From positions 1,737,870 through 1,801,869 of the forward strand of contig NZ_MQWB01000001.1 of NCBI RefSeq assembly GCF_002257665.1: 64,000 bases of DNA. The letters run 5' to 3'. The stretch comes from Rubricoccus marinus (lineage in GTDB: Bacteria > Bacteroidota > Rhodothermia > Rhodothermales > Rubricoccaceae). A model generated the notes under the pieces. It had not been told where the DNA came from and did no database searches. It saw only the letters and a list, made by a program, of their open reading frames with translations. Both the position numbers and the translations under genes were made by a program. Every line of letters starts with the position of its first letter. Position 1 is the stretch's first letter. Shown piece after piece: positions 31,594 to 37,780 of this stretch.

Positions 31594-32220
31594 TCACACC
31601 ACGCTGATCTGATCGGCACAGAGCGCGGCCTCCTCCGGGTCGTTCGTGGCGAGGACAACGGCGCGCGATGGTTCGCGCACGAGCGATGCCACGAGATCCC
31701 GGCCGCTGGCGTCGAGCGTGGCGCCGGGCTCGTCCAGGAGCAAAACGGGCGGGTCGTGCAGCAGCGCCGTGGCGATGCGGAGCCGCTGGCGCATGCCGGT
31801 CGAGAAGGTGGACACGTAATCGTCGGCGCGGTCCCCCAGGCCGACCCGGGCGAGCGTGCTCAGCACGTCGGCCTCTGGCGTGAGCCCTCGGACGCGGGCG
31901 AGAAAGTCCAGCGTCTCGCGGGCGCTGAGTTGGGGGTAGAGCGCGAGGTCCGGCGTGACGAGGCCGACACGGTGCGCACGCTCGTCGGCGCTCACGAGCG
32001 TCTCACCCACCGTGAGGTCGACGCTTCCGCCGGTCGGGGTGAGGACGCCTGCCAAGACCTTGACCAAGGTGGACTTCCCCGACCCGTTCGGCCCTGTCAC
32101 CGACAGAGGCGTACCCTCGCGCACCTCGAGCGAGATCCCGCGGAGGATCGCGCGGAAGCCGTAGTGCATCGTGATGTCTCGCCCTCTGAGACGGACCTTT
32201 GGGCGGGTTTCTCCGTTCAT
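31594..32220 (-). CDS. ABC transporter ATP-binding protein (CcmA-like)
   Basis: The compact 208-residue ATPase has Walker A GPNGSGKST, signature FSTGMRQRL in place of LSGGQ, Walker B PVLLLDEPGATLD and a short C terminus. Size and the STGM signature resemble CcmA, the heme-exporter ATPase of cytochrome c maturation, and ABC-2 type ATPases. No CcmB or other ccm gene is adjacent, so the symbol is withheld. It is divergent from the SodC-like gene across only 21 bases. Confidence 0.8.
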   Translation of the reverse strand: MNGETRPKVRLRGRDITMHYGFRAILRGISLEVREGTPLSVTGPNGSGKSTLVKVLAGVLTPTGGSVDLTVGETLVSADERAHRVGLVTPDLALYPQLSARETLDFLARVRGLTPEADVLSTLARVGLGDRADDYVSTFSTGMRQRLRIATALLHDPPVLLLDEPGATLDASGRDLVASLVREPSRAVVLATNDPEEAALCADQISVV

Positions 32221-32241: not shown

Positions 32242-32790
32242 GTGCGCCTCCTCCCCTTCTTGCTTCTCGGCCTCGCTGCCTGCGCGCAAGACGACCCGAC
32301 GCCTCTGGCGCCAGAGGCGTCCGCCCCTCGCGCGATCAGCGCCGATACTGTAGACGTGCAAGGGGTCTCGGCGGCCCGGGCTCAGGTAGAGGGTGACGTG
32401 ACAGGGACGGTCACGCTGCGGCGCGTTGGCGGCGGCACGCGCGTCCTGATGAGCCTGGACGGTCTCGGTCGCGACCGTTTCCACGGCGTGCAGATCCTCT
32501 CGGCGCGCTCCTGCGATGACCTCGACCCTGCGCGTCACCTCGGCGATGGACGCGCGACGCACGGCCCGTACGATGCCACGACAGGCCGGCGCCACGCGGG
32601 CGACCTCGGCAACATCAAGGGCGATGATCGCCGCCGCGGCCGGTTCGACCGGATCGACCCCGTCGTTTCGCTGGACGGGTACGTGTCCGCCGTTGGCCGC
32701 GCCGTCGTCGTCCGCGCCAGCCAGGACGATGGGTGGGCCTCTGGCGGCGGCGAGGTGATCGGATGCGGCGTCCTGACTCCAACGAGATGA
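32242..32790 (+). CDS. SodC-like lipoprotein lacking the copper ligands
   Basis: From GTG 32242 the protein is 182 residues with lipobox LAAC (Cys14). The SodC fold is clear from FHGVQI, THG, RRHAGDLGNI, SAVGRAVVVRAS and GCGVLTP. Aligned to bovine Cu,Zn-SOD, zinc ligands are kept (His99, His107, His118, Asp121) and both disulfide cysteines are kept (Cys91, Cys175). The copper-only ligands are Gln84, Leu86 and Arg158, and the catalytic Arg position is Val172. It is therefore probably not an active superoxide dismutase. Its stop overlaps the next start (ATGA). Confidence 0.85.
   Translation: MRLLPFLLLGLAACAQDDPTPLAPEASAPRAISADTVDVQGVSAARAQVEGDVTGTVTLRRVGGGTRVLMSLDGLGRDRFHGVQILSARSCDDLDPARHLGDGRATHGPYDATTGRRHAGDLGNIKGDDRRRGRFDRIDPVVSLDGYVSAVGRAVVVRASQDDGWASGGGEVIGCGVLTPTR
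32299..32320. repeat. 22 bp motif palindrome inside the SodC-like gene
   Basis: Two inverted half-sites join perfectly with 11-base arms and encode the linker PLAPEAS just after the lipobox. Confidence 0.8.
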
Positions 32791-33656
32791 TGCGCACGCT
32801 CGGTTTCGTCCTGCTTCTCCTTCTCGCCAGCGGCCTCGCATTCGCGCTGGGCTGGAACCAGCGAGATCAGCGCGTGCCTCCCCCGCCTCCGCCAGAGGCT
32901 GCGGACTCCCCGGCGCTGGACTCACTGGATGCCCGCGCGGCTCGGCTTCGTGGCGCGCTGGAGCGGCTCGCGCCGCCTTCGCCAGAGGAGGAGAACAGCC
33001 TGCGCCGCCCACGGACGCCGAACTACCGCGTGCACCTCGGCTGGGCGGACTCGCTCGGCGTGCAGCCGCTGGCGAGCGAGGCTGAGTTGGGGCGTCACCT
33101 GGCCTCTGGCGCGCTCGTGCCGCTCGTTGACACCGAGTTCTACGTGGTGCGCACGCTGGAGCATTCCAAGCCATTTACCACCCCAGCACTGCGCGAAAGC
33201 CTGGCCGAAGCGGGCCGGCGCTTCCAGGCTGAGCTCGCCCGGTCTGGACTCCCCCCCTATCGGTTTAGCGTGTCGTCCGCGCTGCGAACAGCGGACCTGC
33301 AGGCCGACCTCGGCCGGCGCAACCGCAACGCGACCTCGGGCACGTCCTCCCACGAGTACGGCGCAAGTGTCGACATCGTAACGTTCCGCTATGCGTACGC
33401 GTCTTCGCCTCAGGATTCCATCACGGTAGACGTTGCCGATCCGCATCTAGATCGGGCGAATCGGTTGCTCGTGGACACCTATACGGAGGCCGCGCGTTCC
33501 CGCTGGGACCACCTGTACGGCGCGCTCGCTCGCGCGCTGGGCTCCATGCAGCGCGACGAACGCTTGGTGGTCCTGCTCGAAGCCGAGCAGCCCGTCTTTC
33601 ACGTCACGCATCGAATCCCTGGTGACCTCGACCGATCCGACCCCGACTCCGACTAG
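32787..33656 (+). CDS. DUF5715-family protein, possible M15-like zinc peptidase
   Basis: Start ATG 32787 (or 32790) overlaps the SodC-like stop and gives 289 residues with an N-terminal membrane anchor and a Pro-rich linker. The core has RFSVSSALRTADLQADLGRRNRNA, then SSHEYGASVDI (His189, Asp196), and a late QPVFHVTH (His272). The SxHxxGxxxD layout matches zinc D,D-carboxypeptidases of the M15/Hedgehog type, so a peptidoglycan substrate is plausible but not shown. A paralogue overlaps its 3' end by 35 bases. Confidence 0.75.
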   Translation: MMRTLGFVLLLLLASGLAFALGWNQRDQRVPPPPPPEAADSPALDSLDARAARLRGALERLAPPSPEEENSLRRPRTPNYRVHLGWADSLGVQPLASEAELGRHLASGALVPLVDTEFYVVRTLEHSKPFTTPALRESLAEAGRRFQAELARSGLPPYRFSVSSALRTADLQADLGRRNRNATSGTSSHEYGASVDIVTFRYAYASSPQDSITVDVADPHLDRANRLLVDTYTEAARSRWDHLYGALARALGSMQRDERLVVLLEAEQPVFHVTHRIPGDLDRSDPDSD

Positions 33657-34584
33657 CGCGCCTTTGGCGCCCGCCGAACCCTCTGGCGCCTCTCCTCCCG
33701 CACCACCCGACGATCTCTCGCCAGAGGCGGCCTCTCGGCGCCGGTTCAAGAAGCGATGGGCCGCTGTGTTTCTCGCTCTCGTCGGCGTGGGCATCGTGGC
33801 ATTTACGACGCAGCAGGCCGCGCTGGTAAGCGACGCAGCCGACGCCCATGAGGCGTTTTTGAGCGAGATCGAATCCAGGCTTTCGCGCGTGACCGACCTC
33901 AGCGACGAGGAGATCGCAGACCTCCGCCGATCGCGCAACGCGACGCACGTGGAGGAGGCGCAGGCGCGCGGCATTCCGCCCGTCACCCAGCGCGCAGCCC
34001 TGGCCGACTCCGCCGACGCGGGCGGCCTCGTGCCTCTGGCGTCGAACGCGAGCGTGAATCTCCTAGACGCCACGCACTCCATTTACCGAGCCACGCCCGG
34101 CGTGGGGGTCGCGCTGGATTCCATCTCGGCTCGGTTCGGGCGCGAGTTGGAGGCGCGCGGTTTGCCGCAGTTCCGCTTTACCGTCTCGTCGCTGCTCCGG
34201 TCCGGCGAGGATCAGGCCAACCTGAGCGGCACCAACGTCAACGCCGTTCGCGGCCGCTCCAGCCACGAGTACGGGACCACGTTCGACATCACGTACCGAC
34301 GTTTCGATTTCGACGGCGGCAGGGCACCCGAGGCACCGTCGCTCCCCGAAGGTCTCACCTCGGCGTTCGCCACGCCGCTCCGCCAGAGGCTGGACGCAGC
34401 CGAGCAATCGTTCTACGACGACATCGCGATGGAGCGCGCGCCGGCTCTCGCCGCCATCCTCGGCCGCGTTCTCATCACGCTCGAAGACGACAGCGTCCTC
34501 GTCGCGCTCCGCGAGCGCCGGCAGCCCGTGTACCACGTGACCGAGACCAACGGCGACACACGCCTGACACCCCTCACACAGTAA
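33622..34584 (+). CDS. DUF5715-family protein, second paralogue
   Basis: This 320-residue protein starts at GTG 33622, inside the preceding gene. It has a Pro/Ala-rich cytosolic tail with motif-derived peptides, one membrane segment at about 47-63 (VFLALVGVGIVAF), and a periplasmic domain with RFTVSSLLRSGEDQANL, SSHEYGTTFDI (His215, Asp222) and QPVYHVTE (His305). It carries the same candidate zinc triad as its neighbour. The two may form a heteromer or act on different substrates. Confidence 0.75.
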   Translation: MTSTDPTPTPTSAPLAPAEPSGASPPAPPDDLSPEAASRRRFKKRWAAVFLALVGVGIVAFTTQQAALVSDAADAHEAFLSEIESRLSRVTDLSDEEIADLRRSRNATHVEEAQARGIPPVTQRAALADSADAGGLVPLASNASVNLLDATHSIYRATPGVGVALDSISARFGRELEARGLPQFRFTVSSLLRSGEDQANLSGTNVNAVRGRSSHEYGTTFDITYRRFDFDGGRAPEAPSLPEGLTSAFATPLRQRLDAAEQSFYDDIAMERAPALAAILGRVLITLEDDSVLVALRERRQPVYHVTETNGDTRLTPLTQ

Positions 34585-34592
34585 CCTGACAC

Positions 34593-35381
34593 ATGCGCGT
34601 TCTCCTCCTCGCTCTCGCCATCGTCTCCCCTTCCCTTGCGGCCCAGCCTCTGGCGCCTGAGGACAGCGTGCTCGTGGAGCGGCTGTTAGAGGTCTCGGGC
34701 GTACTGCAGTCCCCGGACATGACTGCCGATCAGTTTGCTAGCGCCCCGCTGCCAGCCCCGCTCGCCGACAGCTTGCTCGCCGCCTTCGCGTCTCAGGCCA
34801 TCGTCGACAGCGTGCGCGCGGCCTTTGTGCGCAACTACGACCGCGACAACACGGTCGCCGCTATCGAGGTGCTCACGGATCCAGTCCTCCGGCCTTTGCT
34901 CGATATCCAGCAGTCCATGGCAAGCGCCGAGGCTGGGGAGGAGATGGTCTCCGTGCTCGCGAACCCGAGCGCCTACGACCTCGCCGATAGCCTAACCGTC
35001 GCGCGGCTCGTGAGCTCTACCGGCATGGCTGAGACCTCGTACGAGTCCTCGCGCAAGATGACGATCGCCATGATGTCTGCTATGCCCAGTGGCGCCCAAG
35101 ATGTCGCGTTCGGTGGAAAGTCCGTCGAGGAACAGGTCGACTCCGTGCTGGGCGCGCAGTTCGAAGGGTTTCAGAGCACCATGATCACCTCGTCGCGCTA
35201 CGCCTACCGCGACGTTCCGCCAGAAGCCGTCACGCGCCTTGCGGACTTTTACGCCTCTCCCGCCGGGCAATACCTCTTGACCGTTTCGCACGAAGGGACC
35301 GAAGCGGGCATGGAGCCTTTGTATGGACGCCTCGCTCAGCTGTTCGAGGTGATGTTCGACGCCTCTGGCGGGGGCCAATGA
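34593..35381 (+). CDS. Secreted DUF2059-like protein
   Basis: The 262-residue protein has a signal peptide (VSPSLAAQP) and a mainly helical mature part. The C-terminal segment with YRDVPPEAVTRLADFYASPAGQYLL resembles DUF2059 domains, which are periplasmic and of unknown role. It follows the DUF5715 pair after eight bases, and its stop overlaps the polB start (ATGA), so DNA polymerase translation appears coupled to this envelope gene. Confidence 0.7.
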   Translation: MRVLLLALAIVSPSLAAQPLAPEDSVLVERLLEVSGVLQSPDMTADQFASAPLPAPLADSLLAAFASQAIVDSVRAAFVRNYDRDNTVAAIEVLTDPVLRPLLDIQQSMASAEAGEEMVSVLANPSAYDLADSLTVARLVSSTGMAETSYESSRKMTIAMMSAMPSGAQDVAFGGKSVEEQVDSVLGAQFEGFQSTMITSSRYAYRDVPPEAVTRLADFYASPAGQYLLTVSHEGTEAGMEPLYGRLAQLFEVMFDASGGGQ

Positions 35382-37780
35382 CAGCGCCCGAGCGCGAAAA
35401 CGTACCGGACGTCTCTGGCGCTGATGCACTCCCGCCAGAGGCGCTCAGCCCCGAGGAGGACGCCCTGCTCTATGGCCACGACCTGACCGAGCGGATCGTC
35501 GCGCTCCACCCCGTCGGGCCGGGCACAATGCGCGTGTACCGCCGCACACCAGAGGACGCGGTGACGTGGGAGGACGAGCGCTACCACCCGTTCTTCCTGC
35601 TGGACGACATCGACCTGCTCAAAGGCTTCCCGCGTGACCGTTTCCAGTTTCAGCCTCTGGCGGGCTCCAACGCCTACCAGTGGCTTGTCGTCTTTCCGGA
35701 CGCCGGGAGCTACTGGGACGCGCGGCGGCACATCCAGCAGGCGAGCGACACGCAGAAGGAGCGCCCGGACGCCATCTACTTCGTGGGTGGCCCGGAACAG
35801 CAGTACCTGATGCAGACTGGCCGGACGCTTTTCAAGGGCATGGAGCTCCACGACCTCCACCGGCTCCAGTTCGACCTGGAGGTGTACTCCGAGCGGGGCT
35901 TCCCGCAGGCCGAGGTACCCGAGCACCGCATCATCCTCGTAGCGCTGAGCGACAACCGCGGGTGGAGCCGCGTTGTGGGCGGCCCGCTCATGGACGAGCA
36001 AAGCGTTCTGGAAGAAACGCTGGAGCTGATGCGCGAGCGCGACCCCGACGTGATCGAAGGCCATAACGTCTTTGGCTTCGACCTCCCCTACCTCGCCGCG
36101 CGTTGCCGTCGCCACGGCGTGCCTCTGGCGCTCGGCCGCGACGGAAGCGAGCCGCGGAGCTTTCCGAGTTCGATGCGCTTTGCCGAGCGGCAGATTGAGT
36201 TCGAGGCCGTCGAGATCGCCGGCCGCCACATCGTGGACACACTGTTCCAGGTGATGAGCTTCGACGTGTTCTCGCGCGACCTGCCCAACTACACGCTGAA
36301 GGGCGTCGCCAAGTACTTCGGCTTCGCGCCAGAGGGCCGCACGTACATCGAGGGCGAGGACATCGCGCAGACGTGGCGCGAGGACCCACAACGCCTCATC
36401 GACTACGCGCTGGACGATGTGATCGAGACGGCTGCCATCGCGGAGCACTTGAGCGGGAGCACCTTCTACCTCACCCAGATGGTGCCGATGCCGTACGGCC
36501 AGTGCGCGCGGAGCGGGCCGGCGTCGAAGATCGAAAGCCTGTTCGTCCGCGGCTACCTGCACGCGCGCCACAGCGTGCCCCGCGCCGAGGCCGGCAGCCA
36601 GATCGTGGGCGGCTACACCGACGTGTTCATGACCGGCGTCGTCGGCCCCGTCGTCTACGCCGACGTCGAGAGCCTGTACCCGTCCATCATGCTCAACTAC
36701 GGCGTGCAGCCCCGCCGCGACGCGCTCGGCATTTTCCCACGCCTGCTCCAGCGCCTCACCGACCTCCGATTCGTCACTAAGCGCGCCATGCGCGAGGCCT
36801 CTGGCGAGAACGAGACGCGCGAACTGGACGCGCGCCAAACCGCCTACAAGAACATCATCAACTCGTTCTACGGCAACATGGGCTTCGGCTTCGCGGCCTT
36901 TAACGACTTCGCCGAAGCCGACCGCGTGGCGGCCACAGGCCAGAAGCTATTGCGGCAGATCATGGCGCTGATCCGCGATCGCGGCGGCCGCATCGTCGAG
37001 GTGGACACCGACGGCGTCCTGTTCGTCCCCCCGCCAGAGGCCCAATCCGCCTCTGGCGACGCCGAGCGCGCGTTCGTCTCGGCTCTCTCCGAGAAGATGC
37101 CCGAGGGCATCCGCATCGGCTTCGACGGCCGATTCGAGCGGATGCTGTCATTCAAAAAGAAGACCTACGCGCTGCTCGGCTACGACGGAACGCTGAAGGT
37201 AAAGGGCTCCAGCTTGGTCTCGCGCAGCACCGAGCGCTTTGGCCGCCGCTTCGTGCGCCGCGCCATCGAACTGCTCCTAGCCGAAGACGTGGCCGCGCTC
37301 CACGCGCTCTACCTCAACCACCGCCAGAGGATCATCGCGCACGACTGGGACGGCGTGGCCAGCTTCCAGCGGATCGAAACGCTCAAGCAGCCTCTGGCGC
37401 GATACGAGCGCGACGTGCGCGACGGCAAACGCAACCGACCGGCCTCCTACGAGCTCGCGAAACAGCGCGCCGAGGCCACAGGCGAGCCCGTCCGCATCGG
37501 CGACCGCATCGCGTTCTACATCGCAGGGGGCGGTGGCCGTGTGTTCGAGGCCGCCAAGCTCGCGAGCGAGTGGGACCCGGCGGACCCGGACGAGGACACC
37601 GCGCACTACATCGGCCGGTTGGACCAGTTCGCGTCCAAGTTCTCGGCCTTCTTCGAGACCGACCACGCCTTCCGGCAGGTGTTTTCCGAAGAGGACCTTT
37701 TCGGCTTCGACGCCAGAGGCATTCGCCTGGCCGTACGGGAGCGGGCGCCAGAGGACGTGACGGATGACGTGCCGTTTTAG
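35378..37780 (+). CDS. Family B DNA polymerase with proofreading exonuclease
   Basis: The 800-residue protein has all expected catalytic motifs. Exonuclease motifs are FDLEVYS (Exo I), GHNVFGFDLPYL (Exo II) and YALDDVIET (Exo III). Polymerase motifs are ADVESLYPSIM (motif A), KNIINSFYGNMG (motif B) and EVDTDGVLF (motif C). It therefore looks like an active polymerase and 3'-5' exonuclease related to Pol II, which usually acts in repair or damage bypass; LexA-type control was not seen. It is the last gene of the run that begins at 32242. Confidence 0.93.
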   Translation: MTAPERENVPDVSGADALPPEALSPEEDALLYGHDLTERIVALHPVGPGTMRVYRRTPEDAVTWEDERYHPFFLLDDIDLLKGFPRDRFQFQPLAGSNAYQWLVVFPDAGSYWDARRHIQQASDTQKERPDAIYFVGGPEQQYLMQTGRTLFKGMELHDLHRLQFDLEVYSERGFPQAEVPEHRIILVALSDNRGWSRVVGGPLMDEQSVLEETLELMRERDPDVIEGHNVFGFDLPYLAARCRRHGVPLALGRDGSEPRSFPSSMRFAERQIEFEAVEIAGRHIVDTLFQVMSFDVFSRDLPNYTLKGVAKYFGFAPEGRTYIEGEDIAQTWREDPQRLIDYALDDVIETAAIAEHLSGSTFYLTQMVPMPYGQCARSGPASKIESLFVRGYLHARHSVPRAEAGSQIVGGYTDVFMTGVVGPVVYADVESLYPSIMLNYGVQPRRDALGIFPRLLQRLTDLRFVTKRAMREASGENETRELDARQTAYKNIINSFYGNMGFGFAAFNDFAEADRVAATGQKLLRQIMALIRDRGGRIVEVDTDGVLFVPPPEAQSASGDAERAFVSALSEKMPEGIRIGFDGRFERMLSFKKKTYALLGYDGTLKVKGSSLVSRSTERFGRRFVRRAIELLLAEDVAALHALYLNHRQRIIAHDWDGVASFQRIETLKQPLARYERDVRDGKRNRPASYELAKQRAEATGEPVRIGDRIAFYIAGGGGRVFEAAKLASEWDPADPDEDTAHYIGRLDQFASKFSAFFETDHAFRQVFSEEDLFGFDARGIRLAVRERAPEDVTDDVPF

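Follow-up and report, generated by a model that had tools for sequence, protein, structure and literature searches.

What can keep a superoxide dismutase (SOD)-like gene in a genome once the residues that hold its copper are gone? A gene of Rubricoccus marinus, located in the 64-kb stretch of DNA that was analyzed as a whole (the window), raises this question. A first-pass annotation had described its product as a SodC-family lipoprotein with an intact zinc site and no copper site, in a reading frame (32242–32790) whose frame and coordinates are correct. The protein carries a Sod_Cu domain (Pfam PF00080; E = 3.6e-15) at residues 53–177, and its top PDB sequence match is 7b4o, a CuZnSOD from Bacteroidetes (E = 6e-13). 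AlphaFold2 predicts a SOD beta-barrel (58 related sequences; mean pLDDT 89), for which Foldseek returns 7b4p/7b4o as the top PDB matches; a sequence-profile search likewise has this CuZnSOD among its best solved structures. Pfam, AlphaFold2 and Foldseek hence all point to the Greek-key beta-barrel fold of SOD. A lipobox, LGLAAC, can be read at residues 9–14, and its cysteine is retained in 5/5 aligned copper-less copies as well as in nearly all lipoprotein SodCs. The gene and the elements at its N-terminal end are the following:

32242 to 32790, forward strand: gene for the SodC-like lipoprotein, a putative pseudoenzyme of 182 amino acids (V1–R182), GTG start at 32242, stop at 32788–32790 (sequence, Pfam, PDB match, AlphaFold2, Foldseek)
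32242 to 32283, forward strand: predicted short lipoprotein signal with lipobox LAAC and lipidated Cys14 (sequence, Cys14 conservation)
32344 to 32367, forward strand: new N-terminal motif DTVDVQGV (D35–V42), conserved only in the copper-less clade

The metal-site residues were assigned by aligning 119 unique SodC proteins, with equivalents numbered H46, H48, H120, R143 and so on:

32491 to 32499, forward strand: lost copper ligands, now Gln84 (H46) and Leu86 (H48)
32713 to 32715, forward strand: lost copper ligand, now Arg158 (H120)
32755 to 32757, forward strand: lost catalytic Arg143, now Val172
32536 to 32538, forward strand: zinc ligand His99 (H63)
32560 to 32562, forward strand: zinc ligand His107 (H71)
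32593 to 32604, forward strand: zinc ligands His118 (H80) and Asp121 (D83)
32512 to 32514, forward strand: disulfide Cys91 (C57)
32764 to 32766, forward strand: disulfide Cys175 (C146)

The residue claims of the first-pass annotation, i.e., a zinc set and cysteines that are kept next to Q84, L86, R158 and V172, are all borne out by this alignment. All four zinc ligands (H63/H71/H80/D83) are present, the bridging aspartate of the secondary bridge (D162) is retained, and the loop preceding H63 is shortened. None of the copper ligands H46/H48/H120 remains; the replacing Q84, L86 and R158 are invariant in 6/6 orthologues, and the catalytic Arg143 is Val here and Ile in the same-genus genome G001. 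Canonical SodC has 33 alignment columns with a conservation of 90% or more, and the copper-less clade retains 18 of them. Conditioned on the survival of these 18/33 columns, the chance that exactly the four zinc ligands and two cysteines are kept while exactly the three copper histidines and the arginine are lost is about 0.0013. The comparison with SodC families that the annotation had proposed thus upholds the loss of the copper site, and the alignment of the copper-less clade shows no conserved His, Cys or Met that has arisen as an alternative copper ligand. A histidine in the tail of the G001 protein (LPHGG) is peculiar to that genome and not common to the clade. From these residues we infer that the protein has neither copper binding nor dismutase activity, while it probably binds zinc. 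SOD zinc sites accept copper in vitro, and the bridging histidine H99 and D162 are both retained, such that one can imagine a redox enzyme whose metal, copper or a different one, occupies either the zinc site or a rebuilt site. Yet the catalytic arginine is absent and the surroundings of the old copper site have gained no conserved His, Cys or Met; this is the least probable of the functions considered here.

A SOD fold with a disrupted copper site, as seen here, is one defining trait of YojM-type pseudoenzymes, and the parallel with Bacillus YojM that the first-pass annotation drew holds well. According to PMC10432803, the copper site of YojM/BsSOD is disrupted and the protein is inactive, and PMC8382915 mentions that the B. 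subtilis protein 1S4I is unable to bind copper; both cite Banci et al. 2005 for the work on YojM/BsSOD (PDB 1S4I). The absence of copper binding and dismutase activity is thus reported for YojM, whereas it is read from residues for the present protein. There are further differences. YojM misses two copper ligands, whereas the present envelope lipoprotein, from the Rhodothermales, misses the catalytic arginine and each of the three copper-only histidines; its genome additionally encodes a canonical SodC, and graded intermediates occur in relatives.

The genes surrounding the SodC-like gene allow its history to be followed across genomes:

31594 to 32220, reverse strand: CcmA-like ABC ATPase, the divergent neighbor (several families of the order share the ccmA–sodC linkage)
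32787 to 33656, forward strand: DUF5715 protein, predicted to be membrane-anchored, with an SSHEYGxxxD motif (Pfam; ATGA overlap with the SodC-like gene at 32787–32790)
33622 to 34584, forward strand: second DUF5715 protein, start uncertain (Pfam and locus comparison)
35378 to 37780, forward strand: family B DNA polymerase, a downstream syntenic marker (Pfam and locus comparison)

The search for other members with the Q/L/R pattern, another proposal of the first-pass annotation, was run on 114 genomes from the order and on 394 from the phylum, and the SodCs fetched amount to the 119 unique proteins of the alignment. Six orthologues with this pattern occur in six genomes of two genera (g1 and g4), with Val or Ile in place of Arg143; a scan of genome contigs gave the G001 orthologue as its sole match. 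Among the 119 sampled Bacteroidota SodCs, missing copper ligands are confined to the ccmA-linked locus of the Rubricoccaceae family. In all nine family genomes examined, the SodC-like gene is divergent from ccmA, and DUF5715 follows it wherever the contig extends (the contig of G008 ends within the gene). Arg143 is lost in 9/9 of these ccmA-linked copies, while the copper histidines are all gone in only 6/9. The other three family members are intermediates, each without the arginine and with most copper ligands retained. In G005 every copper and zinc ligand is present and only the arginine is absent, and G002 has additionally changed H46 to Thr. The third, in G003, retains the copper histidines but has lost the catalytic arginine and the zinc ligand H80 (now Arg), with H63 out of register in the alignment. 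Zinc-site retention is therefore not universal in the wider family, which counts against a pseudoenzyme built around zinc. Viewed as a locus, this G003 orthologue (G003:C72:2361-2792; L017, L046) is the mirror image of the change in the copper-less clade. In the G005 gene (G005:C122:10837-11415; L016), an insertion of five residues has also doubled the copper strand (HIYEGHIHEGG).

In the phylogenetic tree, all six copper-less proteins fall into a single clade (100/98), nested in a larger one (100/97) that unites all nine ccmA-linked copies and stands apart from the canonical SodCs encoded in these genomes. The ccmA–sodC pair also occurs in at least five other families of the order (f2, f7, f10, f11 and f13), and SodC is canonical in each of them. 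DUF5715 is adjacent to the canonical sodC in f10, and polB lies nearby in f13 as well as in G017, a genome of f10. Since the SodC at the ccmA locus is canonical in other families, the ancestor at this locus was an ordinary SodC. The canonical lipoprotein SodCs of the order share the orthologous locus (ccmA–sodC, often with DUF5715 and/or polB), the zinc site and the disulfide with the copper-less protein, and differ by their full HxH...H copper site and Arg143. The closest solved fold and sequence belong to the E-class CuZnSODs of group 3a (BbCuZnSOD, 7b4o/7b4p; PMC8382915), whose Gly-Asp-Cys-Ser tetrad is also found in the ccmA-linked canonical ancestors. The copper-less clade, on the contrary, lacks the copper ligands, Arg143, the tetrad and Gly150. 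Judged by sequence, the gene descends from a canonical ccmA-linked, E-class-like SodC.

A second, separate canonical SodC is encoded in 9/9 family genomes, near mutS in those with readable flanks, and the second SodC of G000 has every ligand. Around mutS, G007 contains four tandem SodC genes (G007:C7:19666-22280; L052), one of them with Pro at the position of Arg143; the same Pro is seen in a mutS-adjacent copy of G029. The presence of a second SodC in the genome renders the ccmA-linked copy redundant, and one may suspect that it is a decaying remnant that folds by chance. The shortened loop ahead of H63 and the long stem branches of the copper-less clade also speak for decay; these branches make a phase of relaxed selection possible. 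On the other hand, frameshifts are absent in all nine genomes, and dN/dS is below one, ranging from 0.23 to 0.49 within the copper-less clade and from 0.13 to 0.50 for canonical copies (NG86 values, used because YN00 saturates on most pairs, and rough in high-GC DNA with synonymous sites near saturation in the more distant pairs). In conservation, the copper-less protein roughly equals the active-type SodC encoded alongside it in each genome, with identities of 67% versus 62% (G000–G001) and 50% versus 43% (G000–G004), and somewhat lower within g4 (63 versus 75%, 61 versus 64% and 82 versus 88%). Moreover, the new residues Q84, L86, R89 (a further arginine beside the former copper site) and R158 are invariant in the clade, which has also gained an N-terminal motif; nothing resembling DTVDVQGV is present in the intermediates or in the canonical forms. 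Based on dN/dS and the paralogue-matched identities, decay is unlikely, and these values indicate that the copper-less clade is under purifying selection. The first-pass annotation had proposed selection for the fold with zinc rather than decay. Its second half stands, given six orthologues with invariant Q/L/R, a dN/dS below one and a conservation close to that of active SodC. This support does not extend to its first half, selection for zinc; G003 shows the opposite trend, with copper histidines kept and H80 replaced by Arg.

The window also contains an iterated sequence that touches this gene. The 9-mer CCTCTGGCG occurs 250 times in the 64 kb versus 1.76 expected, and in 90% of the copies it is preceded by G, giving the 10-mer GCCTCTGGCG. 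The whole 4.43-Mb genome holds 15,555 copies, equally on both strands and in genes as well as intergenic DNA, or about one per 285 bp. G001 has 157 copies, and 28 other relatives are at background level. Where a site can be aligned with G001 (39 cases), the difference usually consists of several substitutions and not of a clean insertion. CCTCTGGCG is a species-specific, very dense iterated sequence that resembles uptake sequences or HIP. Within the SodC-like gene, motif copies lie at 32302–32317 and 32738–32746: the first site is the palindromic pair CCTCTGGCGCCAGAGG, which is translated as PLAPE within the linker, and the other copy falls within the shortened electrostatic loop. The iterated motif may thus have shaped the protein sequence, and its density is possibly more unusual than the copper-less SodC itself.

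What, then, could the conserved protein do? The stop codon of the SodC-like gene overlaps the start of DUF5715 (by ATGA or one base) in 5/5 copper-less loci whose sequence could be read beyond that stop; the spacing is +1 to +3 bases in the intermediates and +56 in the canonical outgroup. Because of this gene coupling, which is the basis of the proposal, the lipoprotein is probably a partner or scaffold of the translationally coupled DUF5715 envelope protein; against it, the ccmA–sodC–DUF5715 neighborhood is older than the loss of copper. The DUF5715 protein has a hydrophobic N-terminus and appears membrane-anchored, and nearly all aligned copies carry an SSHE[YF]Gxx.D motif. Two DUF5715 genes stand in tandem here (32787–34584), with an SSHEYGxxxD motif resembling that of M15/VanY peptidases. 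Over this motif the VanY match is weak (E = 0.14, below the Pfam cutoff), so the relation to M15/VanY peptidases is putative, and a sequence search of the PDB found no relative of DUF5715.

We favor the following explanation, with a probability of roughly 0.6. The protein would be a catalytically dead SodC pseudoenzyme, i.e., a lipoprotein that faces the periplasm and has the Cu,Zn-SOD fold, its disulfide and probably a structural zinc, without copper or dismutase activity, which evolved from the canonical ccmA-linked SodC and has a binding or scaffold role for DUF5715. The residue pattern, ancestry, stepwise loss, purifying selection, synteny and ATGA overlap behind it come from sequence, and we infer zinc occupancy, inactivity and the non-enzymatic role for DUF5715. 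Zinc delivery is a less likely variant than non-enzymatic binding: the lipoprotein would hold periplasmic zinc and pass it to, or buffer it for, a co-translated DUF5715 protein whose SxHxxGxxxD motif is like that of M15/VanY zinc peptidases. The intact zinc site, the ATGA coupling, the conservation of SSHEYG/FGxxxD in nearly all aligned DUF5715 copies and the VanY match over the motif are in line with it. Set against this are the sub-threshold VanY match, the missing PDB relative and the zinc site of SODs, which is buried and normally structural. In addition, canonical SodC is also linked to DUF5715, hence the linkage was not made for zinc delivery, and zinc handling is rather unlikely. A broader proposal is an envelope system peculiar to the family. 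In it, a co-translated, VanY-like DUF5715 protein of the cell wall would have its obligate binding partner or zinc donor in the SodC-fold lipoprotein, which would be loaded with zinc and carry a pocket rebuilt from Gln, Leu and Arg where the copper site was. This proposal is doubtful.

The SOD fold has been reused without copper catalysis in domain 2 of CCS, the eukaryotic SOD1 copper chaperone, which is another copper-less SOD domain. With an active-type SodC also in every family genome, a CCS-like protein that docks on this SodC and aids its maturation or copper supply is conceivable. The parallel, drawn in the first-pass annotation, turns out to be weak. The SodC-like protein has no Atx1-like domain, no CxC tail and no MxCxxC motif, its only cysteines being C14, C91 and C175, and it is a periplasmic lipoprotein. 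The two sequence markers of the E-class dimer interface that were compared, as defined in PMC8382915, are eroded: the GDCS tetrad has become R-x-C-[DEQ], and Gly150 is replaced by T/S/E. The disulfide loop of the active-type partner SodC is also different and longer. Given these missing motifs and eroded markers, such a role is very unlikely.

Under the favored pseudoenzyme explanation, the second, active SodC would carry the dismutase role, leaving the ccmA-linked copy free to change. Loss of the active-site arginine would have come first, followed by that of the three copper histidines, whose places Gln, Leu and Arg now hold as fixed residues with R89 beside them; the N-terminal DTVDVQGV segment is a further addition. 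The product would be a non-enzymatic, zinc-stabilized lipoprotein that acts by binding, with the co-translated DUF5715 protein as first candidate partner.

Copper-less SOD-like proteins such as YojM are already known. A literature search on SOD in Rubricoccus and Rubrivirga, incomplete in coverage, found no report, though one may exist elsewhere. Within this coverage, it is new that all copper-specific residues are lost in a lipoprotein, at one family locus among the sampled Bacteroidota, and with surviving intermediates. The order in which an enzyme dies can be read at a single syntenic locus, from a full SodC in neighboring families, over forms without the arginine that mostly keep the copper histidines, to forms without copper ligands and with fixed replacements. 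The fold and the zinc site are here separated from catalysis in a bacterial lipoprotein, and the living intermediates make it testable what retains a dead metalloenzyme.
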